From contig SCMV01000010.1 in NCBI GenBank assembly GCA_005502875.1, forward strand, positions 1 through 64,000: a stretch of 64,000 nucleotides of DNA, in the 5' to 3' direction. Position numbers and translations under genes: made by a program. This DNA comes from Comamonadaceae bacterium 2PF. Lineage in GTDB: Bacteria; Pseudomonadota; Gammaproteobacteria; Burkholderiales; Burkholderiaceae_C. The notes under the pieces were generated by a model. The model saw only the letters and a program-made list of their open reading frames with translations. It had not been told where the DNA came from and did no database searches. Below, piece after piece: positions 8,429 through 32,460 of the stretch (position 1 is the stretch's first letter; the number at the start of each line of letters is the position of its first letter).

Positions 8429-8496
8429 GACGGAGGCAGCTCAGAGCGGGCGCAAGGGGCACAACTGCCCATGCTAGCCCGTCGCCGCCGTGGCCA

Positions 8497-10784: not shown

Positions 10785-13700
10785 CTAGTGTAGTGGATTG
10801 ACGCTGGCTTGCCGGCCGATCGGCGACGGCGCCGGGGCGGGCAGCCAAAGCTCGAAGACGCCATCGCGTCCCTTGACGGTCGGCGGCAGGCGTCGTATCC
10901 AGATTTCCGTGGGTGGGGTGTCGTTGCCGACGCCCGATGTCGGCAGCGACAGGTGTGGGCGAAGCCATTCACGCAGTCCCTCGGCGCAAGCCATGTCGCC
11001 CTCTCGGTGCACGACGATGGTCGCTCGAGGCCAGGGAACCGGGCCACGCTGCCCCTGGAGCGCAGATCGCTGCACGACGTTGTCCACCGGGGGCACCATC
11101 CAGGGGCTGGCAGATTGGGCGTTGAGCTTGCGGCGCAGGTCTTCTGCGACGTTGCGAGCGGACTCGCTGTAGATCTGCACGTACAGCAGGGCGGCTGGCG
11201 ATCGCGTCGGGCACGCCTGCGCCAGGAGATCGCCGGGGGCGGGGCCGGCGGCAGGGGTGATGTCGTCTGGCAAGCCCTCTGTTGCGGCCAAGGCAGGCTG
11301 GTCGGTGGCGTTGGGGGCTTCGGTGGACGATGCCTGTGCGAACGCGGTGTCACCGGGTGGCTGCGTGGTCCAGCGGTTGAGCAGCGCCAGGGCGGCAGCG
11401 TATTGCTCCTCGGGGCGTTGGGGCGCCACCCAGTAGTTCATGGCCGTTGCCGTGGCGGGTGGGCGCTGCATGGCGGCGCAGAACACCTGGCGGTCCTGGC
11501 TGGCCTGAGGGGCGCAGCTTTGCCACGCCTCTGCGCTTGGCTGGCAGCTCTCGCGGATGCGGGCGCTCATGCGGTGAACGCTGCTGCGGTCGAGCGGGCT
11601 GAGCGCGTCGCTGCGCACCACGTCCAGCATCAGGCTTTCGGCCTGGTTGACGATGTGCTCGGGGATGGCCTTGCACTGCCGATCAAAGCCCTGCAGCTCG
11701 GTCGAGACCTTGACGAACAGCTCTCGCGCCTGGGCGCGGGCCTCCTTTTGCTGCACGTTCATGCTCTCGATGATCTGCCAGCCCGACAGCAGCAGCGTGC
11801 CCGAGGCGCCCAGGCCCAATGTGGTCTTGAGGGCCGCCGCTTTGGGGCCACGTCGCCAAAGCGGCTCGGGCGCGACCTGTTGCGCTGCGACGGCGGGGTT
11901 GAGCCGCGCCGAGACCCGCACCGCGTGCCGAGCACGGTGGCGCCAGCCTGGCAACTGGGCCAGCCAGGTCTCGGTCAAGGCCTGACCGATGTCTTCGCCC
12001 AGGCGGTGGTAGCTCTCCCATTGGGCTTCGTCGAAGAACTGGTCGGACGTGGCCTCGTGAGGAAAGCTCGGGTTGCGCTCTGCGTAGGACAGCACGTCCA
12101 CGTCCAGCGCGTTGTGCAGGTTGGGTTTGATGACGACCAGGGTGCCCTCAGGGCGGCAGGTCTGGCCGGGGCGGTCCGGGTCCGGGCGTTCGCGGTAGCG
12201 GATGCGGGCCAGCAGCACACCCCGGTTGGAGGTGTTGTCGCGCAGGTCCTCTGGTGAGAGCACCGTCAGGTCGGCACCGCAGAGGGTGAACAGGCGCGAG
12301 GCTTCTTCTCGGGTATAGAAGTCGATTTCTGCGCCAAAGTCGATGCGTGCCTTGCGCACGAGGTTCTCGAGGTCGCTGAACTGAAAGTGCCGGTCAGAGC
12401 TGGCGTCGCACAGCAAGATGAAGTCGAGCTCGCGCTTGATCAGCGGGTACACCCCGGTGTTGTCGAAGTGCCCGCCGTCGGAGACGTACCACCAGGGGCG
12501 CTCCTGGCCCATGAAGGTGGCGGTGGCCTCGCAGGTGAGCATCAAAGGCTTGGGAAACCAGTCCCAGCCGAGCTGGCTCAGCCAGCGCAGGCTGGGCGTG
12601 CGGATCGGGCTGGCGACCCAGAATCCCAGTCGGATGCCCAGGAAGTACAGCAGCAGGGCCAGGCCCCTCGAGGTGTAGGCCCCGGCGCCGGGCGAGGCCG
12701 CCGCGCCCGAGATCGCCACCCACTGACCGACGGTGCCCGCCTGCTCGGCCGACGCATGGCGATGCACCTCGCTCGGGCCGACTTCCATGCCACGCCAGCT
12801 GACCGTCAGCAGCGAGCCTTTGCGGTCGGCGTTGTAGAGGTTGCTGTCGCTGTCGCGGGTTTCGTTCAGGCAGGTGTTGATGAGGTGGATGGGCGCTCCC
12901 TGTTCTTCGGGGCGGTAATGGGCCAGCAGGCCGTCGTCGCCCTCGACCACGTTGCGCACGCTGCGCTCGCGTCCCAGGCCCCGCCAGGGCAGGCGGGCCG
13001 GGTTGCCCACGGCCAGGTAGGCGCGCGTCAGCCTCGCGCGATAGAAGGCGTGCAGCGAGGTGCTGTTGGGCATGTGGGTGTTGGTCGATGTCAGCGCGAT
13101 CCAGGCCACGCAGGCCAGCAGCACCAGGACCGCTCGCATCAGCGGCGGCGCGTTGCTGATGGCCTCGATGCTGTCGGGCGCGAAGACCAGCCATTGCAAG
13201 GTCACCAGCCAGGCCATCACCAGGCCCAGCAGGCCCATGGCGCTGATCGCGCCCAGCAACTTGGGCAGCCACTCTCGGGCGTGGCCTTCGGTGTCGGCGG
13301 CCAGTTGCTGCAAGGGTTGGGCGAACGAGCGCAGCAGCAAAATGCCGACGCCACCGGCGCCGATGCCGCCCCACCAGGCGTTGCTGCCGGTCATGAGCTC
13401 TTGCAGCAACCACCAACTGCCGGCGTCGAGCACACCCAGTGCCAGCAGCAGCGCCGCTGTCACCCCGATGCCGTGCAGGGCCCGGGTCAGCCAGTTGCGC
13501 AGGCGCGCCGCGGCCAGGGCGTTGCCTTGGCGGCGCATGCGCGGGTGAACCAGGGCGGCCCAGCTCAGGGCCTGGCCCAGCAGCGCCGAGCCGATCATCA
13601 GCGAGGTGACGGCGTAGGCGCTCGGGCCCTTGGCGTAGAGGCTGTCGAGCACGGGGGCGCTGGCGTCGCGCTGCATCCACAGCACGAGCGTGACCAGGGC

Positions 13701-14549
13701 GACGGCCATCAGCCACTGCACGGCCTGCACAAGGCGGGCTCGCCAGCTGTGCGCTTCGGGGCGAGGCGTGTCGCGCGTGAACCAGTAGCCCGCGATCAGA
13801 CCGGGGCCCACGGCCATGAGCAGTCCGGCCGACAGGGCCACCCAAGGCGAGTACCAGCCCTTCCATGCGCTCGAGAGCACCTGGGTGCTGTACTGCCACA
13901 GGTGGGGGGCGATGACCAGCAGCCCCCACATCAGGCAAAAGACCATGAACTCCAGGTGGATGGCCAGCAGCGCTCGCAGGTAGGTGACCACGACGATGCC
14001 GATGTCGCGCGAGCCGCCGGGGCTGAGGTAGCGGCCATTGCGACGCAGCCAGCCCAGCACGTTGCCATCGTGGCTGGCCAGTGTGCGCTCGGCTTCGAGC
14101 ATGCCGCAGTCGCCGGTGGGCGTGGGCTCGCCGTCGGCCTTGGCCGCCAGGCGCCCCAGCATGGCGGCCACGTAGCCACCGCCGGAGACGGAGGAGAGGT
14201 AGTCGAAACGCCCGAGCAGGCCTTGGCGGCTGAGCTGTTGCGAAGGGTGTTCGGCGCGTCCGTCGGCGGACTGTGGCGAAGCTGCCGGCGTGGCCGCGCG
14301 GCCACCCTTGGCGAGCCCGCGCAGCAGCCCCAGCGAGAAGGTGGCGCTGCGCACGCCGCCGCCCGACAGGGCCAATCCAGCCAGCGGGATGGTGCGGTCA
14401 TGGCCGCTCGGGTCTGACTGAGCTTCGTGCAGCGCGGGTGCCACACGACGGCGTCGTCGGCCGATGGCCGCCAGCTCGTCTTTGAGCTGCGCGGCCCATG
14501 CCGCGCCCTCACCAGGGTCCTCTCCGGTGGCCTCACCCTGCTTGTTCAT
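10785..14549 (-). CDS. Large patatin-like phospholipase with membrane segments
   Basis: Predicted lipid acyl hydrolase of 1254 residues. The catalytic elements are spread through the chain: oxyanion loop LSGGGVRSATFSLG near residue 60, nucleophile motif SSVSGGGY near residue 120, and the catalytic Asp in VSDGGHFDNTG near residue 690. Between the nucleophile and Asp are roughly eight hydrophobic helices (about residues 190-460), so the hydrolase domain is interrupted by a membrane insert. A further hydrophobic helix lies around residue 880, and the C-terminal 130 residues resemble a LytR-C/SPOR-like fold (LYVQIYSESARNVAEDL). GGAG precedes the ATG by about eight bases. It appears monocistronic, downstream of ureG. 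Substrate and physiological role are unknown. Confidence 0.85.
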   Translation of the reverse strand: MNKQGEATGEDPGEGAAWAAQLKDELAAIGRRRRRVAPALHEAQSDPSGHDRTIPLAGLALSGGGVRSATFSLGLLRGLAKGGRAATPAASPQSADGRAEHPSQQLSRQGLLGRFDYLSSVSGGGYVAAMLGRLAAKADGEPTPTGDCGMLEAERTLASHDGNVLGWLRRNGRYLSPGGSRDIGIVVVTYLRALLAIHLEFMVFCLMWGLLVIAPHLWQYSTQVLSSAWKGWYSPWVALSAGLLMAVGPGLIAGYWFTRDTPRPEAHSWRARLVQAVQWLMAVALVTLVLWMQRDASAPVLDSLYAKGPSAYAVTSLMIGSALLGQALSWAALVHPRMRRQGNALAAARLRNWLTRALHGIGVTAALLLALGVLDAGSWWLLQELMTGSNAWWGGIGAGGVGILLLRSFAQPLQQLAADTEGHAREWLPKLLGAISAMGLLGLVMAWLVTLQWLVFAPDSIEAISNAPPLMRAVLVLLACVAWIALTSTNTHMPNSTSLHAFYRARLTRAYLAVGNPARLPWRGLGRERSVRNVVEGDDGLLAHYRPEEQGAPIHLINTCLNETRDSDSNLYNADRKGSLLTVSWRGMEVGPSEVHRHASAEQAGTVGQWVAISGAAASPGAGAYTSRGLALLLYFLGIRLGFWVASPIRTPSLRWLSQLGWDWFPKPLMLTCEATATFMGQERPWWYVSDGGHFDNTGVYPLIKRELDFILLCDASSDRHFQFSDLENLVRKARIDFGAEIDFYTREEASRLFTLCGADLTVLSPEDLRDNTSNRGVLLARIRYRERPDPDRPGQTCRPEGTLVVIKPNLHNALDVDVLSYAERNPSFPHEATSDQFFDEAQWESYHRLGEDIGQALTETWLAQLPGWRHRARHAVRVSARLNPAVAAQQVAPEPLWRRGPKAAALKTTLGLGASGTLLLSGWQIIESMNVQQKEARAQARELFVKVSTELQGFDRQCKAIPEHIVNQAESLMLDVVRSDALSPLDRSSVHRMSARIRESCQPSAEAWQSCAPQASQDRQVFCAAMQRPPATATAMNYWVAPQRPEEQYAAALALLNRWTTQPPGDTAFAQASSTEAPNATDQPALAATEGLPDDITPAAGPAPGDLLAQACPTRSPAALLYVQIYSESARNVAEDLRRKLNAQSASPWMVPPVDNVVQRSALQGQRGPVPWPRATIVVHREGDMACAEGLREWLRPHLSLPTSGVGNDTPPTEIWIRRLPPTVKGRDGVFELWLPAPAPSPIGRQASVNPLH

Positions 14550-14673: not shown

Positions 14674-15321
14674 TCAGGCTGCGCGCAGCAGGCCCTTTGT
14701 CTCGATGAACTCGATCACCTGGTCCAGGCCAGCCTGGGTTTTGAGGTTGGTCATCACGAAGGGCCGCGTCGGGCGCATGCGCTTGGTGTCTGACGCCATG
14801 ATCTCGAGGTTGGCGCCCACGTGCGGGGCCAGGTCCGTCTTGTTGATGACGAACAGGTCGCTCTTGGTGATGCCGGGCCCGCCCTTGCGCGGGATCTTCT
14901 CGCCGGCTGCCACGTCGATCACGTAGATGGTGAGGTCGGACAACTCGGGGCTGAAGGTGGCGGCCAGGTTGTCACCGCCCGATTCGATGAACACGATGTC
15001 GGCGTTGGGGTACTTGGCCAGCATGCGGTCGACGGCCTCGAGGTTGATCGAGGCGTCTTCGCGGATGGCGGTGTGCGGGCAGCCACCGGTCTCCACACCC
15101 ATGATGCGGTCGGGGTCGAGCGCGCCGGCCACGGTCAGCAGGCGCTGGTCTTCTTTCGTGTAGATGTCGTTGGTGATGACGACCAGGTCGTGGTGCTCGC
15201 GCATGGTCTTGCAGAGCATCTCGAGCAAGGTGGTCTTGCCGGAGCCGACGGGGCCGCCCACGCCCACGCGCAGGGGGGGGAGCTTCTTGGTGCGGCCGGG
15301 GATGTTGTGCAGGTTGCTCAT
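14674..15321 (-). CDS. ureG: Urease accessory GTPase UreG
   Basis: GTPase that powers nickel insertion into urease with UreF and UreE; 215 residues, the usual length. The P-loop [13 protein letters not shown] lies near residue 22; the metal-binding [11 protein letters not shown] (Cys-Pro-His) and the [10 protein letters not shown] guanine-specificity motif follow. It is the last gene of the urease operon, its ATG overlapping the ureF stop as ATGA, implying translational coupling. Confidence 0.97.
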
Positions 15322-16112
15322 GATCGGAACAGGCGTGAGTACTGGGTTTCATGCCGGGCGCTCAGGATGGCCAGCATGGGGGTGAAGGCCTGGCGCTGCG
15401 AGTCGGGCAGCGACAAAGCGTGGTCGATGGCCTCGGGGATGGCGTCGATCAGGGACTGGAGGATGCGCTGGCCGGCGCTCTGACCGAAAGGCACGGCCTT
15501 GATGGCGGCCTGCACCATGTTTTCGGCCCAGCCGAAGGTGAAGCTCAGCAGGGCTTCGCGCAGCGCGGGCTCGCCATCCGTCAGCCCGTTGCTCGGGGGC
15601 AGGCACTGGGCCACCGCGAGCGCAAAGGCGATGGGCCAGGTGGGGGCGGGCGGCAGCGCGGCGCATTGGACCAGGCGTGGGTCTGGCTCCGTTGCATGAG
15701 CGGAAACGGACGTTGCAACCACGGGGGTGTCGAGCGGTGCGCGGTCGCCGTTGCGCAGCCATTCGACGAGCGATCGCCCCATCTGCTCGGTTTGCAGCCG
15801 CAACTCGGCGGTCTCGCGGGTCTGCACCACCCAGTCGTTGAGCTCGCGCACGCGGACCAGGTCGTTGCGTTGCCAGGCGGGGACGGCGCGGACCACCACG
15901 GCCAGGTCGCTGCGGGCGACGGCCAGCAGCAATTGGTCGCGCAGCCAGTTGGCGGCATCGGTTTCAGAGCTGACGAGCCCGGCGTCGATGGCCGCCTCGA
16001 GCCCCTCTGAGTAGCTGAAGCCGCCGACGGGCAGGGCGGGAGAGGCCAGCCACATCAGCTTGAGGCGGGCCCCGGCGCTCAGCGGCGTGGGGCGGGGGGC
16101 GATGCGGGGCAT
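15318..16112 (-). CDS. ureF: Urease accessory protein UreF
   Basis: Chaperone that gates GTP hydrolysis by UreG during urease maturation. The product is 264 residues, somewhat longer than typical because of an inserted, low-conservation segment near residues 125-150. Family landmarks are [21 protein letters not shown] near the N-terminus and the C-terminal helices [16 protein letters not shown]. The reading frame is open far upstream through ureE and ureC, but UreF similarity begins at the ATG at 16112. It starts 17 bases after ureE and overlaps ureG by four bases. Confidence 0.95.
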
Positions 16113-16129
16113 GCGCTGGAAGGATTGAA

Positions 16130-16885
16130 TCAGTGGTCGTGACCGTGCCCATGGTCGTGGCCGCATCCGGGGCCATGGACATGGGGCTTGGCTTCGGCCG
16201 CCTTGACGGCGATGCCGATGGGCTTGCCGCGGTTGACCGAGGTCGTGGCGTTGGCCTGGGTGGCGGGTGTCGCGTGGCTGTGGCGGTGATCGTGTCCACA
16301 GCCGGGCCCGTGCACGTGGCCAGGGGCGCCGTGGGGCGGGTTGGCAGCTTGGGCATGGCCGTGCGCATCGTCTCCGTGCGCATGACCGTGGCCATGGTCG
16401 TGATGGGCGTGACCATGCCCACCGTGCCCGCCCGCCGCATAGGCTCCGCCTTCCGGCTCGAAGGCCACGGCCGCATCGCGCACCGTCAGGTGCATGGCGC
16501 GCAGCATGTCGGCCAGCACGTGGTCGGGCTCGATCTTGAGGTGATCCGGCTGCAGCTCGATCTGCACGTGGCGGTTGCCCAGGTGGTAGGCCGCGCGCAC
16601 CAGGTCGAACGGCGTGCCGTGTTGGGCGCAGGGCGTGATCACCAGCACCGGCTGGGGCGCGGCCACCACCCGGATCATGGAGCCGTCTTCGGCCACCAGC
16701 ACGTCGCCACCGCGCACCAGCGTGCCACGGGGCAGGAACACGCCCAGGGTGCGACCCAAGCTGTCGGTGGCGTCGAAGCGGCTTTTCTGGCGCACGTCCC
16801 AGTCGAGTTCGACCTGCGAGGCGCGTTTGAGCAGCACAGGGGCCAAGCCCTGGCCCTGGGGGAGGAGTTTGTTGACGATCAGCAT
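16130..16885 (-). CDS. ureE: Urease accessory nickel chaperone UreE with long His-rich tail
   Basis: Delivers nickel to the urease assembly complex; 251 residues against about 150-170 for ordinary UreE. Residues 1-150 form the peptide-binding and metal-binding domains (ends with [20 protein letters not shown]). From residue 152 an Ala/Gly/His tail of about 100 residues carries 25 histidines, and the motif [11 protein letters not shown] occurs twice. Such tails store nickel in other UreE proteins, and the two Cys add potential ligands. It sits 15 bases after ureC. Confidence 0.95.
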
Positions 16886-16900
16886 GGCCGCCAGTGTGGC

Positions 16901-18628
<1,728 letters not shown>

Positions 18629-18686
18629 CTTGGGGGATTCCTTGTTTGCCTCGGGTGGGCGCTGCAGAAGGGCAGGCCGCTGGGCG

Positions 18687-18992
18687 TCAGAGCGGGCCTT
18701 GCGTCAGGCCGCGGAAGCCGAAGACGATGCGGTCGCCGGCGTAGTCCACCAGCTCCACGGTGCGCTGCTGGCCGGGCTCGAAGCGCACGGCGGTGCCTGA
18801 AGCGATGTTCAGGCGCATGCCTTGCGCGGCCGTGCGGTCGAAGCTGAGCGCGGCGTTGGTTTCGGCAAAGTGGTAGTGCGAGCCGACCTGGATGGGGCGG
18901 TCGCCGCTGTTCTCGACCACCAGGGTGATCGTGCGGCGGCCGGGGTTGAGGACGATGTCCGGCCCGTCGGTGAGCAGTTCGCCGGGCGTCAT
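18687..18992 (-). CDS. ureB: Urease subunit beta
   Basis: Structural subunit of urease, 101 residues. It begins MTPGELL and contains the family segment [18 protein letters not shown] and the end [18 protein letters not shown]. Its ATG shares one base with the stop of the preceding small membrane-protein gene (TGATG), so translation of the two is probably coupled. The frame continues upstream without a stop, but only the part from 18992 is UreB-like. Confidence 0.96.
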
Positions 18993-19171
18993 CACTTGCC
19001 GCCCTTGAACCAGATGACCGCAGCGATCACGGCTGCGATGGCCACGAAGCCGAGCACATCCGAGGCGTGCCAATGGGCGAAGCCGGGCATGCCGTGGCCC
19101 TCGTGGGCCCAGGCGGGCAGGGCGCAGGCCAAAGAAGCCAGGAGCAGGGACAGGGGGCGGAGTTGCTTCAT
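18992..19171 (-). CDS. Small exported membrane protein between ureA and ureB
   Basis: Unrecognised 59-residue protein. Residues 1-22 form a signal-peptide-like segment ending PAWA. A short His-rich stretch follows, [16 protein letters not shown], then one hydrophobic helix (about residues 36-54) and a basic end KGGK. The position is the one occupied by ureJ (HupE/UreJ) in some betaproteobacterial urease operons, but this product is far too short for a HupE permease. The clustered His and Met would suit nickel binding, which is inference. The start at 19171 is chosen because it gives a proper signal peptide; an upstream ATG adds 14 non-signal residues. Stop overlaps the ureB start by one base. 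Confidence 0.65.
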
Positions 19172-19264: not shown

Positions 19265-19567
19265 TCATGCAATGGGTTGGTGCACGGTCACCAACTTGGT
19301 GCCATCCGGGAAGGTGGCCTCGACCTGGATCTCCGGGATCAGGTCGGCCACGCCATCCATGACGTCGGCGCGGCTGAGCACCGTCTTGCCTTCGCTCATC
19401 AGCGCTGCCACGGCCTTGCCGTCGCGGGCGCCTTCCATGATGGCGGCGGTGATCAGGGCCACGGCCTCGGGGTGGTTGAGCTTGAGGCCGCGGGCCTTGC
19501 GCCGCTCGGCCAGCAAGGCGGCGGTGAAGATCAGCAGCTTGTCTTTCTCGCGGGGGGTGAGTTCCAT
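19265..19567 (-). CDS. ureA: Urease subunit gamma
   Basis: Smallest urease subunit, 100 residues, opening [20 protein letters not shown] and containing the conserved [24 protein letters not shown]. It is the first gene of the operon here. In most related operons ureD precedes ureA, but here the neighbour is the divergent permease-kinase gene, leaving a 71-base promoter region. Confidence 0.97.
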
Positions 19568-19587
19568 GGTCTGGTCGTGGCAGCAAG

Positions 19588-19604
19588 CGGTGCACGCGGC
19601 ACCG
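19588..19604. promoter_or_regulatory. Palindrome between ureA and the permease-kinase gene
   Basis: CGGTGC-ACGCG-GCACCG is a perfect six-base inverted repeat with a five-base spacer, placed 20 bases from the ureA ATG and 34 bases from the divergent ATG. Arm order is the reverse of an NtrC site (GCACC first), so NtrC is not claimed. It is a natural candidate operator for the nearby LuxR-type regulator. Confidence 0.4.
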
Positions 19605-19638
19605 AACTTGCCTTGTCAGAGGGAGTCAGACCCGCACC

Positions 19639-22600
19639 ATGCAAGAGACAGACCACGCCCGTCAAGCCCAGGACATCCCAGAAGCCGGCACCACGCCGGA
19701 GGCCCGCCAACGCGTCATCAAGGTGCGGCGCGACTACAACAGCTGGGTGGCTACCGAGACCCTGGAGGATTACGCGCTGCGCTTCACGCCGCGCTCGGCC
19801 CGCCGGTGGCGCAAGGCCGGGGTGGCCAACATGGCCTTCGGTGTGGCCTCGTTCCTGGTGCTGGAGGCGGTGGGGGCCACGCTGCTGGTCGACCACGGCT
19901 TCGTCAACGCCTTCTGGGCCATCCTGGCCACGGGCCTGATCATCCTGCTGGCCGGCTGGCCCATCAGCGTTTATGCCGCCCGCTATGGCGTCGACATGGA
20001 CCTGCTGACCCGTGGTGCGGGCTTTGGCTACATCGGCTCGACCATCACCTCGCTCATCTACGCCTGCTTCACCTTCGTGTTCTTCGCGCTGGAGGCGGCG
20101 GTCATGGCCTACGCGCTGGAGCTGGCCTTCGACATCCCGCCGGCCTGGGGTTACCTGATCTCGGCCGGGGTGGTGGTGCCGCTGGTCACCCACGGGGTCA
20201 CGACCATCAGCCGCTTGCAGCTCATCACCCAGCCGATCTGGCTGCTGATGCTGGTGGTGCCGTTTGTCTACGTTTTCAGGGAGCACCCGGGCATCTTGCA
20301 AGACCTGGCTGGCTACGCCGGGCAGGACGGTCAGCACCCGGGGTTCGACCTGATCGGCTTCGGCACGGCGCTGACGGTGGGCATCGCGCTGATCACGCAG
20401 ATGGGCGAGCAAGCCGACTACCTTCGTTTCATGCCGGAGCCCCGATCCAGGGACCGCGGCGACAAGGCGCGCTGGCGCCTGGCGGTGTTCATCGGTGGGC
20501 CGGGCTGGGTGATCCCCGGGGTGCTCAAGATGCTGGGTGGGGCGCTGCTGGCCTTCCTGGCCATCGGCTACTCGGTGCCGGTGGAGCAGGCGCTGGACCC
20601 GAACCAGATGTACCTGATCGCTTGGGAGAAGGTGTTCGCGAACCAGGGTTGGGCCATCGCGGCGGTGGCGCTGTTCGTGGTCATCTCGCAGCTCAAGATC
20701 AACGTGACCAATGCCTACGCTGGCTCGTTGGCGTGGTCGAACTTCTTTGCACGGGTCACGCACAGCCACCCCGGGCGCGTGGTGTGGGTGGGCTTCAACG
20801 CCCTGATCGCGCTGATGCTGATGGAGCTCAACCTGTTTCAGGCGCTGGGCAAGGTGCTGGGGCTGTACGCCAACGTGGCGATCGCCTGGATCATGGCGGT
20901 GGTGGCCGACCTGGTCATCAACAAGCCGATGGGCTGGTCGCCCAAGGGCATCGAGTTCAAGCGGGCGCACCTGTACGACATCAACCCGGTGGGCGTGGGC
21001 GCGATGGTGCTGGCCTCGCTGGTGTCGATCCTGGCGTATGTGGGCTGGATGGGTGAGCTGGCCCAGGCGTTCTCTGCCGTGATCGCGATGCTGGTGGCCT
21101 TCGTCACCTCGCCGGTGATCGCGTGGGCGACGAAGGGGCGCTACTACCTGGCCCGCACGTCGGATCTACCCCATGCGCAGCCCGAGCCCTGCGGGGCGGC
21201 GGATGGCTTGCAAGGCCCCGCGTGCCAGCCTGCGCCGATGGGTGAGAGCGATGCTGGCCGGCCGCTGTCGCGCGTGATCCGGCTCAAGGCCTTGCACCGC
21301 TGCACCGTGTGCGAGCGCGAGTACGAAGCCGAGGACGTGGCCAGCTGTCCGGCCTACCAGGGTTTCATCTGCTCGCTGTGTTGCGCGCTCGATGCGCGCT
21401 GCCAGGACCTGTGCAAGCCCGAGGCGCGCTGGGCGGTGCAGTGGCGAGCCCTGGGGCAGCGGGTGATGCCATTGGCCGTGTGGCGCAGGCTTGACACCGA
21501 GCTGGGGCAGTTCCTGCTCATCATGGCGGTGCTGGCGCCACTGCTGGCGGGCCTGTTCGGCCTGGTCTACCGCCAGCAACTGCAGGAGATCAGCTCGCTG
21601 CACCTGGGCAGCCTGCCCGTGGCCGCCGACATGATGGGTGCGGCCTTGCTCAAGGTGTTCGTGGCGCTGCTGCTGATCGTCGGCGTGGTGGGCTGGTGGG
21701 TGGTGCTCACGCACAAGAGCCGGCTGGTGGCGCAGGAAGAATCGAATCGGCAGACGCACTTGCTGCTGCGCGAGATCGAGCTGCACCGCATCACCGACGA
21801 CAAGCTGCAGCGCGCACGTCAGACGGCCGAGCAGGCCAACCAGGCCAAGAGCCGCTACATCTCGACCATCAGCCACGAGTTGCGCACGCCGCTCAACGGC
21901 ATCCTGGGTTACGCGCAGCTGCTCGACGAGGACGCGAAGCTGCCGGGCCACGCCAAGCACGCGGTCGGTGTCATCAAGCGTGGTGGTGACCACCTGCTCT
22001 CGCTCATCGAGGGCACGCTGGACATCGCCCGCATCGAAAGCGGCAAGCTCACGCTGGACGTCAAGCCCGTGCGCTTCGCCGAGCTGCTGCAGCAGATCAC
22101 CGGCCTGATCGAAAACGAGGCCCACGCCAAGCGCCTGACCTTCGTGGCCGAGCTCGACGCCAACCTGCCCGAGGCCGTGCGCGCCGACGAAAGGCGCGTG
22201 CGCCAGATCCTGCTCAACATCCTGGGCAACGCGGTGAAGTTCACGGCGCAAGGCGAGGTGCGATTCAAGGTGCGCTACGCCCGCGAGATCGCCCACATCG
22301 AGATCACCGACACGGGCCCGGGCATCACCTCTGAAGAGCTGGAGCGCATCTTCGAGCCCTTCGCTCGAGGCGCCTCAGCGGCTGGCGCGGGCGGCACCGG
22401 CCTGGGCCTGACCATCAGCAAGATGCTGACCGACCTCATGGGCGGCGAGATGCGCGTGAGCAGCGAGGTGGGGCGGGGCACGACCTTCCAGATCAGGCTG
22501 TTCCTGCCGCAGGTGCGCGCGGCCGAGGTCGACCGCTTGTTGCGCCCGCGTGGCCTGCGAACCGGCTATGTCGGCGAGCGCCGCCGCATCTGGGTGGTCG

Positions 22601-23247
22601 ACAACGAAGAGGCCGACCGAGGCTTGCTGGTGCGCATCCTGGAGCCACTGGGCTTTGACGTGACTCCGTTGCCCAGCGGCCTGGCCTGCCTGGCGCAACT
22701 GCGGGCCGCGCCGCCCAGCGATCATCCCCACGCCATCTTCATGGACCTGGCCATGCCCGGCCTGGATGGCTGGGCCACCTTGCGCGCCATCCAGGCCGAA
22801 GGGTTGAGCGACGCCCCTGCGGCCATCGTGTCGGCCAATGCCTTCGACAAAGCGCTGGACAACGACGTCGGGATCCGCTCGGAGGACTTCATCGTCAAGC
22901 CGGTGAGGGTGGCGGAGCTGCTCGACTGGCTGGGGCGTCGGCTGGGCCTGCAGTGGATCGAGGTGGAGCGCGGTGCGCCGCAGCAGGCGGGCGCGCCCTT
23001 GGCAGCCCCGGCGCAGCAATCCGGCGCCTTGCCCAAGCTGGAGGCCCTGCGCCAGCTCGAAGAGCAGTTGCACGCGGGTTACATTCGCGGTGTGCACAAG
23101 GTGCTCGACCAGATCGCCGCCGCCCAGCCCGAATGCGATGCCTTCGTGACCCGACTGCGCGAGCTGGCCCGTCAGTTTCAGCTCGACGCGCTGGCCCGCC
23201 AGGTTGAGGGGGCGCTGCAAGCGGCTCAGTCCGGCGCCCAGGCCTGA
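19639..23247 (+). CDS. NCS1-type permease fused to a hybrid sensor histidine kinase
   Basis: Predicted membrane sensor of 1202 residues. Residues 30-505 form a complete-looking NCS1 (purine/cytosine/allantoin-type) transporter with about twelve helices. Residues 555-592 hold eight Cys in a CxxC...C...CxxCC...C...C arrangement, likely a metal site. Two further helices (about 623-645, 668-692) lead to a kinase core: HisKA phospho-acceptor His746 in [11 protein letters not shown], HATPase boxes [18 protein letters not shown] and [11 protein letters not shown] receiver domain has Asp1036 in [12 protein letters not shown] helical C-terminal domain completes it. The architecture parallels CbrA, where an SLC5 transporter is fused to a kinase. 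Divergence from urease and the adjacent response regulator suggest sensing of urea or a purine-derived nitrogen source; the ligand is inferred. Confidence 0.92.
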
Positions 23248-23297
23248 TCCAGCCCTGCATCACCGATTCAATCCCCCGCACTCGCCAGCCTTCCCAG

Positions 23298-24257
23298 ATG
23301 TTTGACCGCCTCGACCGCAGCCGCACCGACGTCGTGCTCATCGTTGACGATGTGCCCGACAACCTGTCGCTGCTGCACGATGCGCTGGACGACGCGGGCT
23401 ACACGGTGCTGGTGGCCACTCACGGCGAAGCGGCCCTGCAGCGCGCCTTGCAGGCCGTCCCCGACGTGATCCTGCTCGATGCCATCATGCCGGGCATGGA
23501 CGGGTTCGAGGTGGCTCGGCGCCTCAAGGCCCAGCAGGAAACCGCCCACATCCCGGTGATCTTCATGACGGGCTTGAGCGAGACCGAGCACGTGGTGGCG
23601 GCCTTTGAGGCCGGTGGGGTGGATTACGTCGTCAAGCCCATCCGCCCGCGCGAGGTGCTGGCGCGCATCGCCAGCCACATCCAGGGGGCCCGTCAGGCCC
23701 GCCAGGCGCGCAACGCGCTCGACGCTTTTGGCCACGCCTCGATCACGGTGCGCATCAGCGATGGCCGCATCCTGTGGCAGACGCCGCTGGCGCGCAAGCT
23801 CTTGCAGTCGCACTTCGATGCGCCCGAAGCGGTGGCGCCGCTGGAGCTGGCAGATTGGTTGAAGCTGACCGCGCCCAAGCTGTCGGCCGAGCTGGCGCGG
23901 GGCCTGGTGCCGACGACGGTGCCCGTGTGGGCCGTCAACCAGGGAGGACGCCGACTGAGCTTCACCTTGCACCAGCCCACCGGCGACGATGAGTGGCTGC
24001 TGGTGATGCAGGAAAGCTCAGACCAGGCCGCGATGGACGCGCTCAGCCAGGAGTTCAAGCTCACCACCCGCGAGGGCGAGGTGCTCTACTGGGTCGTCAA
24101 GGGCAAGACCAACCGCGACATCGGTGACATCCTGGGCAGCAGCCCGGCCACGGTCAAAAAGCAGCTCGAGCACATCTTCGCCAAGCTGGGTGTGGAGACG
24201 CGCACGGCCGCAGCCGGTCTGGCGATGAGCCGGGTGGCGCAGCTCAAGGCCCGGTGA
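23298..24257 (+). CDS. Response regulator with receiver and LuxR-type DNA-binding domains
   Basis: 319-residue regulator. The N-terminal receiver domain has the acidic pair in VDDVPDN, phospho-acceptor Asp in LLDAIMPGMDG and Lys in VDYVVKPIRP. A middle region (about residues 140-240) looks like a degenerate PAS-type domain. The C-terminus is a LuxR/GerE helix-turn-helix, LTTREGEVLYWVVKGKTNRD and SSPATVKKQLEHIFAKLG. It lies 50 bases after the permease-kinase gene and is almost certainly its partner. Urease and its own operon are the obvious candidate targets. Confidence 0.92.
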   Translation: MFDRLDRSRTDVVLIVDDVPDNLSLLHDALDDAGYTVLVATHGEAALQRALQAVPDVILLDAIMPGMDGFEVARRLKAQQETAHIPVIFMTGLSETEHVVAAFEAGGVDYVVKPIRPREVLARIASHIQGARQARQARNALDAFGHASITVRISDGRILWQTPLARKLLQSHFDAPEAVAPLELADWLKLTAPKLSAELARGLVPTTVPVWAVNQGGRRLSFTLHQPTGDDEWLLVMQESSDQAAMDALSQEFKLTTREGEVLYWVVKGKTNRDIGDILGSSPATVKKQLEHIFAKLGVETRTAAAGLAMSRVAQLKAR

Positions 24258-27214: not shown

Positions 27215-27232
27215 ATACGCCATGTGGCGTAT
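27215..27232. promoter_or_regulatory. 18-bp perfect palindrome upstream of urtA
   Basis: ATACGCCATGTGGCGTAT has eight-base perfect arms around TG. It lies about 75 bases before the urtA ATG and just upstream of a sigma-54-like element, a good place for an activator or repressor. The binding protein is unknown; spacing differs from the NAC rule ATA-N9-TAT. Confidence 0.45.
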
Positions 27233-27305: not shown

Positions 27306-28583
27306 ATGAACATGTCCCGTCGCAGCGCCGTCCAGTCCTTGTCCGCCGTCGCCCTCGGCGTCGCTGGCCTGGCCTTCAGCACCATGGCCCAAGCCGCCGA
27401 CACCATCAAGGTCGGCGTGCTGCACTCGCTGTCCGGCACCATGGCCATCTCCGAAACGGTTCTCAAGGACACCGTCCTGATGGCCATCGACGAGATCAAT
27501 GCCAAGGGCGGCCTGCTGGGCAAGAAGCTCGAACCCGTGGTGGTCGACCCCGCTTCCAACTGGCCCCTGTTCGCCGAAAAGGCCAAGCAGCTGCTGACGC
27601 AAGACAAGGTCTCGGTCGTGTTCGGCTGCTGGACCTCGGTGTCGCGCAAGTCGGTGCTGCCGGTCTTCAAGGAAAACAACGGCCTGCTGTTCTACCCCGT
27701 GCAATACGAAGGTGAAGAGCTCGAGAAGAACGTGTTCTACACGGGCGCCGCCCCCAACCAGCAAGCCATCCCCGCTGTTGAGTACCTGATGAGCAAGGAC
27801 GGCGGTTCGGCCAAGCGCTTCGTGCTGCTGGGCACCGACTACGTCTACCCCCGCACCACCAACAAGATCCTGCGCGCCTTCCTGAAGTCCAAGGGCATCT
27901 CGGAAGCCGACATCATGGAGGAGTACACCCCCTTCGGTCACTCCGACTACCAAACCATCATCGCCAAGATCAAGAAGTTCTCGTCCGAAGGCAAGAAGAC
28001 CGCCGTCATCTCGACCATCAACGGCGACTCGAACGTGCCCTTCTACAAGGAACTGGGCAACCAGGGCCTGAAGGCCAAGGACGTGCCGGTGGTGGCCTTC
28101 TCGGTGGGTGAAGAAGAGCTGCGTGGCGTGGACACCAAGCCCCTGGTTGGCCACCTGGCTGCCTGGAACTACTTCATGTCCGTCAAGAACCCGACCAACG
28201 ACGAGTTCATCAAGAAGTGGACGGCTTACGCCAAGGCCAAGAACATCGCCGGTCACAAGGACAAGCCCCTGACCAACGACCCGATGGAAGCGACCTACAT
28301 CGGCATCAACATGTGGGCCCAGGCCGTGACCAAGGCCAAGTCCACCGACACCGACAAGGTGATCGCCGCGATGGCCGGCCAGACCTTCAAGGCCCCGGGT
28401 GGTTTCATGTCCAAGATGGACGAGAAGAACCACCACCTGCACAAGCCGGTCTTCATCGGCGAGATCAAGTCCGACGGCCAGTTCAAGGTGGTCTGGAAGA
28501 CCCCTGGCCCCGTCAAGGCCGCTCCTTGGAGCCCCTTCATCGAAGGCAACGACAAGAAGAAGGGTGAGCCCGAAGTCAAGTGA
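27306..28583 (+). CDS. urtA: Urea ABC transporter substrate-binding protein
   Basis: Periplasmic urea receptor of the UrtABCDE importer, 425 residues. Residues 1-31 are an export signal ending AQA; the motif SRRSAVQSL at its start resembles a twin-arginine signal, so Tat export is possible. The mature part has Leu/Ile/Val-binding-protein fold with UrtA landmarks: KVGVLHSLSGTMAISE, GCWTSVSRKSVLPVFKE and NGLLFYPVQYEGEE. The ATG at 27306 follows AGGAG; the longer frame upstream is not used. Strong hairpins after the stop separate it from urtB and should make urtA mRNA more abundant than the membrane genes. Confidence 0.96.
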   Translation: MNMSRRSAVQSLSAVALGVAGLAFSTMAQAADTIKVGVLHSLSGTMAISETVLKDTVLMAIDEINAKGGLLGKKLEPVVVDPASNWPLFAEKAKQLLTQDKVSVVFGCWTSVSRKSVLPVFKENNGLLFYPVQYEGEELEKNVFYTGAAPNQQAIPAVEYLMSKDGGSAKRFVLLGTDYVYPRTTNKILRAFLKSKGISEADIMEEYTPFGHSDYQTIIAKIKKFSSEGKKTAVISTINGDSNVPFYKELGNQGLKAKDVPVVAFSVGEEELRGVDTKPLVGHLAAWNYFMSVKNPTNDEFIKKWTAYAKAKNIAGHKDKPLTNDPMEATYIGINMWAQAVTKAKSTDTDKVIAAMAGQTFKAPGGFMSKMDEKNHHLHKPVFIGEIKSDGQFKVVWKTPGPVKAAPWSPFIEGNDKKKGEPEVK

Positions 28584-28598
28584 TCGGGTTCTCTCCTT

Positions 28599-28648
28599 GT
28601 GACCAGCTTTGAGCTGGTCACCCCGGGCGGGAGTCGCTTTCCGCCCGG
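28599..28648 (+). terminator. Two hairpins after urtA
   Basis: First stem: GTGACCAGCT (28599-28608) and AGCTGGTCAC (28612-28621) with a three-base loop. Second: CCGGGCGG (28623-28630) and CCGCCCGG (28641-28648). No T-tract follows directly; they may stabilise the urtA transcript 3' end. Confidence 0.55.
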
Positions 28649-28679
28649 CCTTGAAAAGTCCAAGTGCAAAGAGCGGTTC

Positions 28680-28716
28680 GCCCCGCTGGGGTCTCCCCAG
28701 GGGGCGTCTTTTTTCT
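28680..28716 (+). terminator. Intrinsic terminator/attenuator just before urtB
   Basis: GCCCCGCTGGGG and CCCCAGGGGGC pair around TCT with one bulged base, followed by GTCTTTTTTC. It ends about four bases before the urtB ATG, so urtB-E expression must depend on read-through. Confidence 0.7.
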
Positions 28717-28720
28717 GGTG

Positions 28721-30388
28721 ATGCCTGTGATCAGCGACATCGATCGAACCTCCATCCATCCTCCCGTTGGCGCCTGGCGTCGGCGTGCCTCGCAACTGGC
28801 CCTGAGCCTCGGGCTCGGCGCAAGCCTCTTCGGCCTGAGCGGCCTGGTCGCCCCGTCGGCCTGGGCCCTGACGGCCGAAGAGGCCTACGCCATCTCGGCC
28901 GGTGACAACGACGACCGCGTGGCCGCGTTGCGTGCTGTCGTGGCCAAGGGCGATCCGGCCCTGCCGGCCTTCCTGCACGCCCTGGCCGACGACACCGTCA
29001 AGGTGGCCGGCAAGCGCGCTTACATCGTGTACGGCGACGACGTGAAAGACGCCGCCACGGGCGAGCCGGCCAAGCTGCCCGAAGGCGCCGAAGACGTCGT
29101 CAACAACAACCGCATGGGCAGCGAGATCGAGGCCGCGCTGGCCATCGGCAAGCTGACATCGGCCGATCGCGACGAGCGGGCTGCTGCCATCGAGGCGCTG
29201 TCCAGCGCGGCCGACGAGTCGCAACTGGCCACCATCGACAAGGCCCTGGCTGCCGAGTCCGATGCGCAGCTGCTCAAGCAGCTCAAGACCGTGCGCTCCA
29301 AGGCCCTCTTGAACTCGCAAGACCCTGGGCGACGCCTCGAAGCCGTCAAGGCCCTGGGTGCCGATGCCTCGCCCGAGTCCCGCTCCTTGCTGATGGAGCG
29401 CATGAACGATGCCGCCGAAACCGACGCCACCGTCAAGGGCGCGCTGCAGACGGCCCTCGACGCCGTCAACCGCAAGCTGGCCTGGGGCGAGCACGCAGGC
29501 GTGCTGTTCACCGGCATCAGCCTGGGATCGATCCTGTTGCTGGCTGCGCTCGGCCTGGCCATCACCTACGGCCTGATGGGCGTCATCAACATGGCGCATG
29601 GCGAGCTGATGATGATCGGCGCCTACGCCACCTTCGCGGTGCAGAACGTTTTTCGCGCCTACTTCCCCGAGGCCTTCGACTGGTACATCCTGCTCGCGGT
29701 GCCGGCGTCCTTCCTGGCTGCGGCCCTGGTGGGCGCGGTGCTCGAGCGCAGCGTGTTCCGCTTCCTGTACGGCCGCCCACTGGAGACGCTGCTGGCTTCC
29801 TGGGGCCTGAGCCTGATCTTGATGCAGGCCGTGCGCACCGTCTTTGGCGCCCAGAACGTGCAGGTCGAGAACCCGAGCTGGATGTCCGGCGGCTTCGATG
29901 TGCTGAGCAACCTCACGCTGCCTTACAACCGCCTGGTCATCATCGCCTTCGCAGCCGCCGTGCTCATCGGCATGACCTTGCTCATCAACAAGACGCGCAT
30001 GGGCCTGTTCGTGCGCAGCGTGACCCAGAACCGCCCGATGGCCTCCTGCATGGGTGTCAACACCGCCCGCGTCGACACCATGGCCTTCTCGCTGGGCGCA
30101 GGCATCGCCGGCCTGGCGGGCTGTGCGCTCTCGCAGATCGGCAACGTGGGCCCCGACCTCGGTCAGAACTACATCGTGGACTCGTTCCTGGTGGTGGTCA
30201 CGGGCGGTGTCGGCCAGATCGCCGGCACGGTGTACGCCGCGCTGGGGCTGGGCATGGTCAACAAGCTGCTCGAAGGCTGGTCGGGGGCCGTGCTGGCCAA
30301 GATCATGGTCCTGGTCATCGTGGTGATCTTCATCCAGAAGCGTCCGCAAGGTCTCTTCGCGATGAAGGGCCGCAGCGCCGAAGCCTGA
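28721..30388 (+). CDS. urtB: Urea ABC transporter permease UrtB
   Basis: Inner-membrane permease of the urea importer, 555 residues. A signal-like hydrophobic segment (about residues 20-50) is followed by a 200-residue soluble extension rich in short helices, as in long proteobacterial UrtB proteins. The LivH-type permease core starts near residue 265 (GITYGLMGVINMAHGELMM-like segment) with seven to eight helices and ends FIQKRPQGLFAMKG. The ATG at 28721 is the only sensible start but has almost no Shine-Dalgarno and abuts the terminator. urtC follows after 12 bases. Confidence 0.94.
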   Translation: MPVISDIDRTSIHPPVGAWRRRASQLALSLGLGASLFGLSGLVAPSAWALTAEEAYAISAGDNDDRVAALRAVVAKGDPALPAFLHALADDTVKVAGKRAYIVYGDDVKDAATGEPAKLPEGAEDVVNNNRMGSEIEAALAIGKLTSADRDERAAAIEALSSAADESQLATIDKALAAESDAQLLKQLKTVRSKALLNSQDPGRRLEAVKALGADASPESRSLLMERMNDAAETDATVKGALQTALDAVNRKLAWGEHAGVLFTGISLGSILLLAALGLAITYGLMGVINMAHGELMMIGAYATFAVQNVFRAYFPEAFDWYILLAVPASFLAAALVGAVLERSVFRFLYGRPLETLLASWGLSLILMQAVRTVFGAQNVQVENPSWMSGGFDVLSNLTLPYNRLVIIAFAAAVLIGMTLLINKTRMGLFVRSVTQNRPMASCMGVNTARVDTMAFSLGAGIAGLAGCALSQIGNVGPDLGQNYIVDSFLVVVTGGVGQIAGTVYAALGLGMVNKLLEGWSGAVLAKIMVLVIVVIFIQKRPQGLFAMKGRSAEA

Positions 30389-30400
30389 GGAAACAACAAC

Positions 30401-31540
30401 ATGAGTGCAGTGATGACTTCGAATCTGCCTGGCACCGGCATCACGGTGCCCCGCAGCGCCCTCGGCCCCCAGGGCTGGACGGCCCTGATGGCCGCCGTGA
30501 TCACCGTGATGGTGCTCGCGCCGGTGCTCAACATGGTGGTGCCGGCCGACTCGGCCTTCCACCTCTCCGATTACGCCGTCGCCTTGATCGGCAAGATCAT
30601 GTGCTACGCCATCTGCGCGCTGGCCATGGACCTGATCTGGGGCTACACCGGCATCCTGTCGCTGGGACACGGCCTGTTCTTCGCCCTCGGTGGCTATGGC
30701 ATGGGCATGTACCTGATGCGCCAGATCGGCCGCGACGGCTCGTATGGCGCCGACATCCCCGACTTCATGGTCTTCCTGGACTGGAAGCAGGTGCCCTGGC
30801 ACTGGACGCTCAGCGAAAGCTTCATCGCCCAGATGCTGTTGGTGGTGCTGGTGCCCGGCTTGCTGGCCTTCGTCTTCGGCTTCTTCGCCTTCCGCTCGCG
30901 CATCAAGGGCGTGTACTTCTCGATCATCACCCAGGCGATGACGTTCGCGGCCATGCTGCTGTTCTTCCGCAATGAAACGGGTTTTGGCGGCAACAACGGC
31001 TTCACCGACTTCAAGCGCATCCTCGATATCCCCATCGCTCAGCAGTCCACCCGCATGGTGCTGTTCGTGCTGACGGGCCTTACGCTGATCGGCTTCTTCC
31101 TGATGGCCCGCTGGTTGGTGGGCACCAAGTTCGGCCGCGTGCTGCAGGCCATCCGCGACGCCGAGAACCGCGTCATGTTCTGCGGCTACAACCCGCTGGC
31201 CTACAAGCTCGCCATCTGGACGCTCTCGGCCGTGATGTGTGCCATCGCCGGTGCCCTGTACGTGCCGCAGGTCGGCATCATCAACCCCAGCGAGATGTCG
31301 GCTGCGGCCTCCATCGAAATCGCCATCTGGACGGCGGTGGGCGGTCGCGCCACGCTGATCGGCCCGATCATTGGCGCCTTCTTCGTCAATGGCGCCAAGA
31401 GCTGGTTCACCGTCGCCTTCCCCGAGTTCTGGCTGTACTTCCTGGGCCTGCTGTTCGTGCTGGTGACCCTGTTCCTGCCCGACGGCATCGTCGGTGGCAT
31501 CAAGAAACTGCTCAACAAGAAGGCTGAGGTGAAGGCATGA
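30401..31540 (+). CDS. urtC: Urea ABC transporter permease UrtC
   Basis: Second permease subunit, 379 residues, LivM-type. It shows about eight to nine membrane helices and the family segment LIWGYTGILSLGHGLFFALG, with the EAA-like loop VLQAIRDAENRVMFCGYN. It is 12 bases from urtB and overlaps urtD as ATGA. Confidence 0.95.
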   Translation: MSAVMTSNLPGTGITVPRSALGPQGWTALMAAVITVMVLAPVLNMVVPADSAFHLSDYAVALIGKIMCYAICALAMDLIWGYTGILSLGHGLFFALGGYGMGMYLMRQIGRDGSYGADIPDFMVFLDWKQVPWHWTLSESFIAQMLLVVLVPGLLAFVFGFFAFRSRIKGVYFSIITQAMTFAAMLLFFRNETGFGGNNGFTDFKRILDIPIAQQSTRMVLFVLTGLTLIGFFLMARWLVGTKFGRVLQAIRDAENRVMFCGYNPLAYKLAIWTLSAVMCAIAGALYVPQVGIINPSEMSAAASIEIAIWTAVGGRATLIGPIIGAFFVNGAKSWFTVAFPEFWLYFLGLLFVLVTLFLPDGIVGGIKKLLNKKAEVKA

Positions 31541-32436
31541 CCCCCGACCTGATGGAAGAAGGCAGCAAGACCCTGCTGCGCGCCCTGAACACGCCCACCA
31601 ACGCGGGCGAATCGGGTGGCCGCGAGGCCAATTACGGCCGCGTGGTGAATGACCCGAACCAGGTCGACCTGACCCACGGCTCCATCCTCTACCTCGACGA
31701 CATCGAGGTCAGCTTCGATGGTTTCAAGGCGCTCAACAAGCTGAGCCTGGACATCGCGGTCGGCGAGATGCGCTGCATCATCGGCCCCAACGGCGCGGGC
31801 AAGACCACGATGATGGACGTCATCACCGGCAAGACCCGACCTGACAGCGGCTCGGCCTTCTTTGGCGCGACCATCGACCTGCTGAAAAAGCGCGAGAACG
31901 AGATCGCCCAGATCGGCATCGGCCGCAAGTTCCAAAAGCCCACCGTTTTCGAGCACCTGAGCGTGTTCGAGAACCTCGAGCTGGCGCTCAAGGCCGACCG
32001 CCGCGCGCGCGCCTCGGTGTTCTTCAAGCTCAGCGGCGAGCAGCTCGACCGCATCGGCGCCATGCTGCAGCTCATCCACTTGAAGGACCAGGCTCAGCGC
32101 ACGGCCGGCTTGCTCTCGCACGGCCAGAAGCAGTGGCTGGAGATCGGCATGCTGCTGATGCAGGACCCCAAGCTGCTGCTGCTCGACGAGCCCGTGGCCG
32201 GCATGACCGACGAAGAGACCGAGCGCACCGCCGAGCTGTTCCTGTCGCTGGAGGGTGCGCACTCGCTGGTGGTGGTCGAGCACGACATGAAGTTCATCCA
32301 CGAGCTCACCACCCAAGGCCCCACCGCTGGCAAGAAGAAGGTCACCGTGCTGCACGAAGGCTCGGTGCTGGCCGAGGGCACGCTGGCCGATGTGCAGGCC
32401 AACGACAAGGTCGTCGAGGTCTACCTCGGTCGCTGA
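31537..32436 (+). CDS. urtD: Urea ABC transporter ATP-binding protein UrtD
   Basis: LivG-type ATPase of the urea importer, 299 residues. Walker A is GPNGAGKTTMM, the signature is LLSHGQKQWLEIG (His replacing the second signature Gly position, common in UrtD), and Walker B is KLLLLDEPVAGM with the switch His in VVVEHDMKF. The first 50 residues are an extension before the ABC domain. Start overlaps the urtC stop by four bases. Confidence 0.95.
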   Translation: MTPDLMEEGSKTLLRALNTPTNAGESGGREANYGRVVNDPNQVDLTHGSILYLDDIEVSFDGFKALNKLSLDIAVGEMRCIIGPNGAGKTTMMDVITGKTRPDSGSAFFGATIDLLKKRENEIAQIGIGRKFQKPTVFEHLSVFENLELALKADRRARASVFFKLSGEQLDRIGAMLQLIHLKDQAQRTAGLLSHGQKQWLEIGMLLMQDPKLLLLDEPVAGMTDEETERTAELFLSLEGAHSLVVVEHDMKFIHELTTQGPTAGKKKVTVLHEGSVLAEGTLADVQANDKVVEVYLGR

Positions 32437-32460
32437 CGCAGGGTTTCAAGAAAGAACAAC

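Follow-up and report, generated by a model that had tools for sequence, protein, structure and literature searches.

Organization of the locus

We analysed a stretch of 64,000 nucleotides of contig SCMV01000010.1 of Comamonadaceae bacterium 2PF (hereafter the window), in which a permease-kinase fusion and a response regulator lie between a divergent urease cluster and the genes urtABCDE of a urea ATP-binding cassette (ABC) transporter (Table 1). The kinase is a single chain that joins a permease, a segment with eight cysteines, two extra helices, and HisKA, HATPase and receiver domains, exactly in the coordinates, lengths and order given by the initial annotation. The receiver-LuxR regulator that it had placed as the next gene (Pfam Response_reg and GerE) and the 71 bases that it had counted to the divergent ureA start were also recovered.

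Table 1. Coordinates of the features discussed (window positions unless another locus is named)
Feature	Position	Strand	Basis or remark
ureB 18687-18995, ureC 16901-18628, ureE 16130-16885, ureF 15318-16112, ureG 14674-15321	14674-18995	-	
ureA	19265-19567	-	Start at 19567
Divergent ureA/kinase intergenic region, 71 bp	19568-19638		
Sigma54-like -24/-12 element CGGCACCGAACTTGCC	19597-19612	+	26 bp before the kinase ATG; putative promoter
NCS1-like permease/hybrid histidine kinase (P0001), 1202 aa, intact frame	19639-23247	+	Open reading frame, Pfam, alignment, model
Permease domain, residues ~43-507	19765-21159	+	About 12 membrane helices counted on the model; best PDB matches Mhp1/CodB
Cys-rich segment, residues ~553-596 (C555, C558, C570, C578, C581, C582, C588, C592)	21295-21426	+	Alignment
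Two extra helices, residues 621-653 and 659-734, the second continuing into the kinase linker	21499-21840	+	Predicted model
HisKA 736-802 (His746) and HATPase_c 850-956	21844-22506	+	Pfam, alignment
C-terminal receiver, residues 984-1096	22588-22926	+	Pfam Response_reg, alignment
Receiver-LuxR (GerE) response regulator (P0002), 319 aa; helix SPATVKKQ, A284 and K287	23298-24257	+	Response_reg 13-124, GerE 255-308 (Pfam)
Predicted response regulator operator TACGCCATGTGGCGTA, palindrome TACGCCA-TG-TGGCGTA	27216-27231		Centre 82 bp upstream of the preferred urtA start
urtABCDE, urea ABC transporter	27306-33165	+	UrtA by NCBIfam TIGR03407, over cut-off; urtA start 27306 preferred over 27222
Aliphatic amidase gene (same genome)	L228, 7333-8373		Palindrome TACGTTGTTTGACGTA at 8444, equal to C27:34443

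Relatives were collected as a set of 118 kinases from 115 loci, which combines the 80 best GTDB loci, chosen paralogues and exceptions, class hits and plasmid records; this set is non-random and includes near-duplicates. An even sample of 299 family genomes served for the permease and urease alpha searches and gave 133 listed orthologue rows. The catalytic histidine (His746) and both N-box asparagines align in all 118 kinases, and the receiver aspartate in 117, with one gap. With its HisKA, HATPase and receiver domains and their catalytic residues, seen by Pfam and alignment, the protein is a hybrid histidine kinase. Its receiver carries the pair D-N, as opposed to D-D in relatives linked to formamidase (fmd) genes, and N is found in 78 of the 101 kinases parsed. 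Pfam matched neither a PAS nor any other ligand domain in the window kinase, and no domain between its permease and HisKA. In 11 annotated plasmid stretches, annotators had named the kinase 'ATP-binding protein' and once sensor hybrid kinase. The response regulator follows directly downstream in 114 of the 118 cases; having a receiver with the phospho-acceptor aspartate and a GerE domain, that of the window is of the NarL type.

The permease domain is NCS1-like but divergent

We modelled residues 1-735 with AlphaFold2 from 61 sequences (predicted local distance difference test 76.8, predicted template modelling score 0.76). The five PDB chains closest to the permease model were all NCS1 transporters, namely Mhp1 (4d1a, 2jln, 2x79) and CodB (7qoa A and B), with E-values of 2.3e-9 to 2.0e-7 and TMt of 0.64-0.73. 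Other structures ranked lower, with 2.4e-6 for the top Nramp and 8.5e-6 for the top SGLT. By this search the modelled domain has the NCS1-type LeuT fold. At the sequence level, the window kinase has no match to PF02133 at E ≤ 1, nor was any found in its own genome, so that the label 'NCS1' rests on structure and one relative. PF02133 matches 1 of 23 relatives (E 6.7e-8) and, at 8.6e-8 and above the cut-off, a free 540-residue permease homologue that is 44.8% identical (locus L170). PDB sequence searches with the window protein and with a 23-row profile gave no match. The hhalign alignment of the permease profile to CodB gave E 3.9e-4 with a probability of 35 over 202 columns; that to AllW, at E 0.18 over 46 columns, was of no use. 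The window protein also differs from Mhp1 and CodB by its additional Cys segment and kinase. Of the 'full-length NCS1 transporter' in the initial annotation, the modelled fold and the PF02133 match of the L170 homologue speak for the fold, while a PF02133 match of the window protein itself is missing; we describe the domain, on the model, as NCS1-like and divergent.

The permease region (residues 1-554) was matched in 169 of the 299 family genomes at E ≤ 1e-5, weakly in 4 of the 169. All listed matches sit in open frames of at least 1040 aa, which shows that the fusion is not due to chance.

A Cys-rich linker and its free forms

The eight cysteines of the linker are invariant in 61 sequences and their motif is present in all 118 kinases; the segment may form a cytoplasmic metal site. 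Searching it in 150 genomes of the order gave 28 matches, spread over 27 genomes and each within an open frame longer than 1100 aa, and hence no lone Cys domain in those 150 genomes. Free permeases were found at two loci. The one in L170 (9089-10711) lies directly 3' of ureG, inside the urease cluster, and ends with a shortened segment of four cysteines. The one in L154 (11905-13446) lies just before genes for formamidase and aliphatic amidase, facing a kinase-regulator pair, and ends with the full segment. Both are candidate urea/amide transporters. In a Paracoccus protein (L179), permease, Cys segment and helices are followed by a plain kinase with no receiver.

Linkage to urease, urea transport and formamidase genes

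In the 78 family genomes for which both positions were listed (the other 55 of the 133 orthologue rows had no listed ureC), ureC lies within 20 kb of the kinase in 68, without exception in divergent orientation, the median start-to-start distance on shared contigs being 2.0 kb. Urease alpha is present in 237 of the 299 family genomes. Among the 118 kinases, 69 have ureA or ureB as immediate divergent neighbour, 27 a urt/fmd transporter gene and 1 a free permease; the remaining 21 have another immediate neighbour, which is not divergent in 12. Within 12 kb, urease genes occur near 76 kinases, formamidase near 21, a urea-type ABC transporter only near 12, and none of these near 9. The initial annotation had proposed a tabulation of neighbours and would have given way if the architecture were mostly found away from nitrogen genes; this was not borne out, as genes of this kind (urease, urea-type ABC transporter, formamidase) accompany 109 of the 118 kinases.

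In a tree of 117 permeases, built by a quick method with a midpoint root and showing several long branches, one clade of 82 rows contains 72 urease-linked and no formamidase-linked members, and a Burkholderiales clade of 15 rows contains 13 formamidase-linked ones. The neighbour labels require 14 changes on this tree, compared with a mean of 39.6 in shuffles.

Paralogous pairs face formamidase operons

Paralogues were set apart by an identity below 65%, and 13 of the 17 rows so listed were fetched. In 12 of these 13 loci, a second kinase-regulator pair, with a permease 58-61% identical, is divergent from an ABC transporter and formamidase (FmdA) operon. FmdB was found in 7 of the 12 and a binding-protein gene was called in 11; in the scanned loci, NCBIfam confirmed the formamidase and FmdB as well as a binding protein of the UrtA type. 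The thirteenth (G024, L129) lies opposite ureA and falls in the urease clade of the tree. The genome of the window itself carries one such fmd-type pair (G000:C13, L157), facing a formamidase operon. This arrangement of the paralogue narrows the range of ligands.

The pair is also found on plasmids. In Burkholderia vietnamiensis, Chelatococcus, Methylobacterium, Paraburkholderia and Azospirillum its neighbours are urt-type genes and formamidase; in Roseomonas, Shinella, Sinorhizobium meliloti, Methylosinus and Mitsuaria they are urt or urease genes, separated from it by three genes in S. meliloti and by two in Methylosinus. Permease matches, about 49% identical in the rows seen, occur in 342 Klebsiella plasmid records; the one read (L176) has urtABCDE, a shorter formamidase gene and insertion sequences nearby. 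In L086, L106 and the overlapping L128, urease-type and fmd-type pairs stand close together, in L106 upstream of an allophanate hydrolase gene. The stretches fetched for these three loci contain no urease gene; in the genome of L128 (G145), ureC is about 20 kb away.

A palindromic site precedes urtA

The motif TACGT-N6-ACGTA occurs exactly in 17 of 23 kinase-transporter regions (duplicates removed); in one shuffled set, no comparable pair exceeded 3. Its degenerate form TACGY-N6-RCGTA was found 75 times in 133 loci, which overlap in part and total 2.56 Mb, where about 7 were expected from base composition only. Sixty-three of these sites fall in the 420 bp before urtA or the corresponding fmd/urt gene, and several of the other 12 are in stretches where the urtA-type gene was uncalled or lies beyond the end. 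At loci linked to urease, urtA is usually preceded by the form TACGCCA-N3-GGCGTA. In the window, TACGT-N6-ACGTA with two mismatches gave 4 hits for 3.6 expected by chance; only comparison between loci brought out the urtA site.

The whole genome contains three TACGY-N6-RCGTA sites. One precedes urtA, another lies between the fmd operon and its kinase (C13:39865), and the third is some 70 bp ahead of a gene for aliphatic amidase (NCBIfam 702 bits, cut-off 427), which is likely a further target of the amide-type regulator. In other genomes, we chose 20 sites located on another contig or at least 25 kb from the kinase; 15 precede urtA and 5 do not. The strict form of the palindrome is present in 99 of the 169 permease-positive and 14 of the 130 permease-negative genomes (Fisher p 2e-18, kinship ignored). 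Eleven of the latter 14 were read (G048, G155 and G184 were left out), and the site precedes urtA in 7 and does not in 4. No TACGY-N6-RCGTA was found between ureA and the kinase in the ureA-kinase regions, including that of the window.

The regulator helix co-varies with the site

We assumed the position of the recognition helix from what is known of LuxR-type regulators. In urease-linked regulators, position 284 is mostly A or M and position 287 K; in fmd-linked and other urt-linked ones, 284 is R and 287 mostly N. For the 62 rows with both a helix and a site, sorted into classes defined after the data had been seen, A/M284-K287 goes with a C-type site in 32 and R284-N/T/D287 with a T-type site in 22. 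The 8 rows that deviate are L086, L106 and L128, where both regulator types are present, two R-H and one R-T with C, and two with mixed sites.

Outside the class-defining set, five genomes (G062, G174, G252, G257 and G179; loci L190, L191, L198, L199 and L201) keep a regulator that adjoins ureA divergently and carry the site ahead of urtA, while no permease-kinase was found in them; the regulators there appear to be orphans. K287 is present in 5 of 5. This shows that the site follows the regulator even without the fused kinase, and that the regulator can live with another input or none.

Sigma54-like elements in the divergent regions

Elements of the form GG-N10-GC were scored in 67 ureA-kinase regions, where the means were 12.8 toward the kinase and 13.0 toward ureA, compared with 10.1 in shuffles. 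They were weaker in 23 transporter-kinase regions (11.9 toward the kinase versus 10.6 shuffled; 10.8 on the other side). In the window, the element toward the kinase is clear, with 13 of 15, and the best one toward ureA, which overlaps it, reaches 11.5. These motifs suggest that nitrogen limitation may raise the sensor through a sigma54-like promoter.

A proposed urea transceptor-kinase and its alternatives

We consider it probable that the window protein is a urea transceptor-kinase whose response regulator activates urea uptake by urtABCDE. This reading builds on the architecture, the conserved linkage, the sites and the co-variation of site and regulator, all of them apparent in the sequences compared. 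The NCS1-like permease domain would bind urea and perhaps carry it; its state would be passed through the Cys-rich segment and the two extra helices to HisKA, and phosphate would reach the LuxR-type regulator, perhaps via the kinase's own receiver. The regulator would bind the TACGCCA palindrome upstream of urtA and switch on, rather than repress, high-affinity urea uptake, feeding urease, and the sigma54-like element before the kinase may act as a nitrogen-limitation gate. The paralogous pair of the same genome would play an equivalent role for short amides, through the fmd operon and probably also the aliphatic amidase. The transceptor-like kinase of the urea pathway put forward in the initial annotation is retained, in NCS1-like form; in place of a direct switching of ureABC, the predicted target is the site before urtA. 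That annotation had listed urea, allantoin, a purine or a pyrimidine as ligand; the context points to urea and short amides, and purine or pyrimidine genes were not recurrent among the neighbours read, no systematic search for them having been made.

Several observations weigh against the urea transceptor model. Nine of the 118 kinases, some of them near contig ends, lack the nitrogen-side genes within 12 kb, and the five genomes described above keep regulator and site with no permease-kinase found. Seventy of the 169 permease-positive genomes do not have the strict form of the palindrome, and its reversed control, which was not tallied, is also common in family genomes. In the genome of the window the reversed control pattern has 16 sites compared with 3 palindromes; the palindrome is therefore not frequent there, and the weight lies on the positions of the three sites. 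A strict NtrC gate is disfavoured by an ntrC deletion of Acidovorax citrulli, which is reported to grow on urea still (PMC10052978).

The permease could instead be mainly a transporter or a membrane anchor, the signal being read in the cytoplasm, either by the Cys segment or through urea hydrolysis or the nitrogen status, with the same regulator targets. To this we grant a modest chance. The SLC5 domain of CbrA is reported not to be essential for signal perception (PMC9100948), which counts for this alternative and against a receptor role of the permease. Likewise, the Cys motif is kept in all 118 kinases and ends both free permeases, and five genomes have the regulator without the permease-kinase. 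However, Pfam found no PAS or ligand domain in the kinase, and the permease sequences themselves split into urea-linked and formamide-linked clades. We give a smaller chance to the regulator also, or mainly, activating ureABC directly: the tight, conserved divergence from ureA would fit, but the ureA-kinase regions lack TACGY-N6-RCGTA and show recurrent sigma54-like elements instead, and the site stays with urtA even at loci where kinase and transporter genes lie far apart. The data do not support direct control of ureABC.

Nucleobases, allantoin and hydantoins are the substrates of classical NCS1 transporters, and given the NCS1 fold the ligand could be a purine, pyrimidine, allantoin or other such compound whose breakdown yields urea. 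This is quite improbable in our view, since paralogues face formamidase, the free permeases accompany urease or formamidase and aliphatic amidase, and no purine gene set was recurrent among the neighbours read, although no search was aimed at such genes. That the adjacency is merely inherited synteny with no functional tie is hardly credible: most loci do come from related Burkholderiales, but the linkage recurs in Alphaproteobacteria and on plasmids, where the partner operons differ, the sites precede urtA also at a distance, and regulator helix and site co-vary. Returning to the urea transceptor model, we see an even chance that it reflects a second, independent invention of transporter-kinases, in which an NCS1-like amide permease, a Cys-rich metal switch and a kinase gave rise to urea and short-amide transceptors whose ligand and target specificities split in step (urea versus formamide), with each kinase-regulator pair retaining an operator letter of its own. 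That the permease survives free, with a plain kinase and with a hybrid kinase would provide material for asking how a transporter turns into a receptor. If correct, the model describes a dedicated urea sensor (formamide in the paralogue), and a kinase-transporter fusion outside SLC5. It also offers, across Burkholderiales, a candidate regulator of urea uptake together with a defined site; Alphaproteobacteria and Klebsiella plasmids carry relatives.

Relation to known systems

A parallel with CbrA, with a different transporter family, had been drawn in the initial annotation. It holds for the fusion with an NCS1-like transporter; the SLC5 domain that defines CbrA and CrbS is absent from the window kinase, and CbrB is another type of regulator than the LuxR-type one. 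In CbrA/CbrB of Pseudomonas, which responds to histidine, transporter and kinase are described as one chain, termed a transceptor, with the order SLC5-STAC-PAS and without a C-terminal receiver (PMC13022988).

The closest functional parallels are CrbS/CrbR (acetate) and RpuS/RpuR (pyruvate), in which a transporter is fused to a hybrid kinase, the regulator is of LuxR type and a conserved DNA motif precedes uptake or utilisation genes; RpuS/R raises expression of the pyruvate symporter operon (PMC5715377, PMC9100948). The window kinase differs in being NCS1-like rather than SLC5, in the Cys segment and two helices of its linker and in that no PAS was found, and the pair stands in a urea/amide context. 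Its palindrome is unlike the CrbR sites shown in print. The protein does not belong to the SLC5/STAC kinases, as it fails on the SLC5 domain: no SLC5 family was among its Pfam hits, and SGLT ranked below NCS1 and Nramp in the structure search. Its predicted linker, with short strands, a Cys pattern and long helices, looks unlike the cytosolic STAC four-helix bundle, no STAC sequence or model having been compared.

The fmd cluster of Methylophilus methylotrophus likewise combines formamidase with an amide/urea ABC transporter and is induced by formamide and urea and repressed by ammonia; in contrast, the part of its description available includes no sensor kinase (PMC10781810). A table for Dechloromonas aromatica (PMC2907700) has 'histidine kinase 1131', 'Che-Y like receiver 308' and 'UrtA' in the same order and with similar sizes; the likeness is by description, not sequence, and the rows seen carry no comment on a permease or sensing. 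In the titles and abstract starts of the open-access literature, we found no NCS1-kinase fusion or urea two-component sensor of such kind.

Other features of the region

A frame of 1254 aa (10785-14549, minus strand) lies downstream of ureG and is present in the flanks of 2 of 80 loci; a patatin-like label was dropped for lack of a Pfam match at E ≤ 1e-5. The ureD gene is located away from the other urease genes, at C15:7001-7621 of the same genome (L229).

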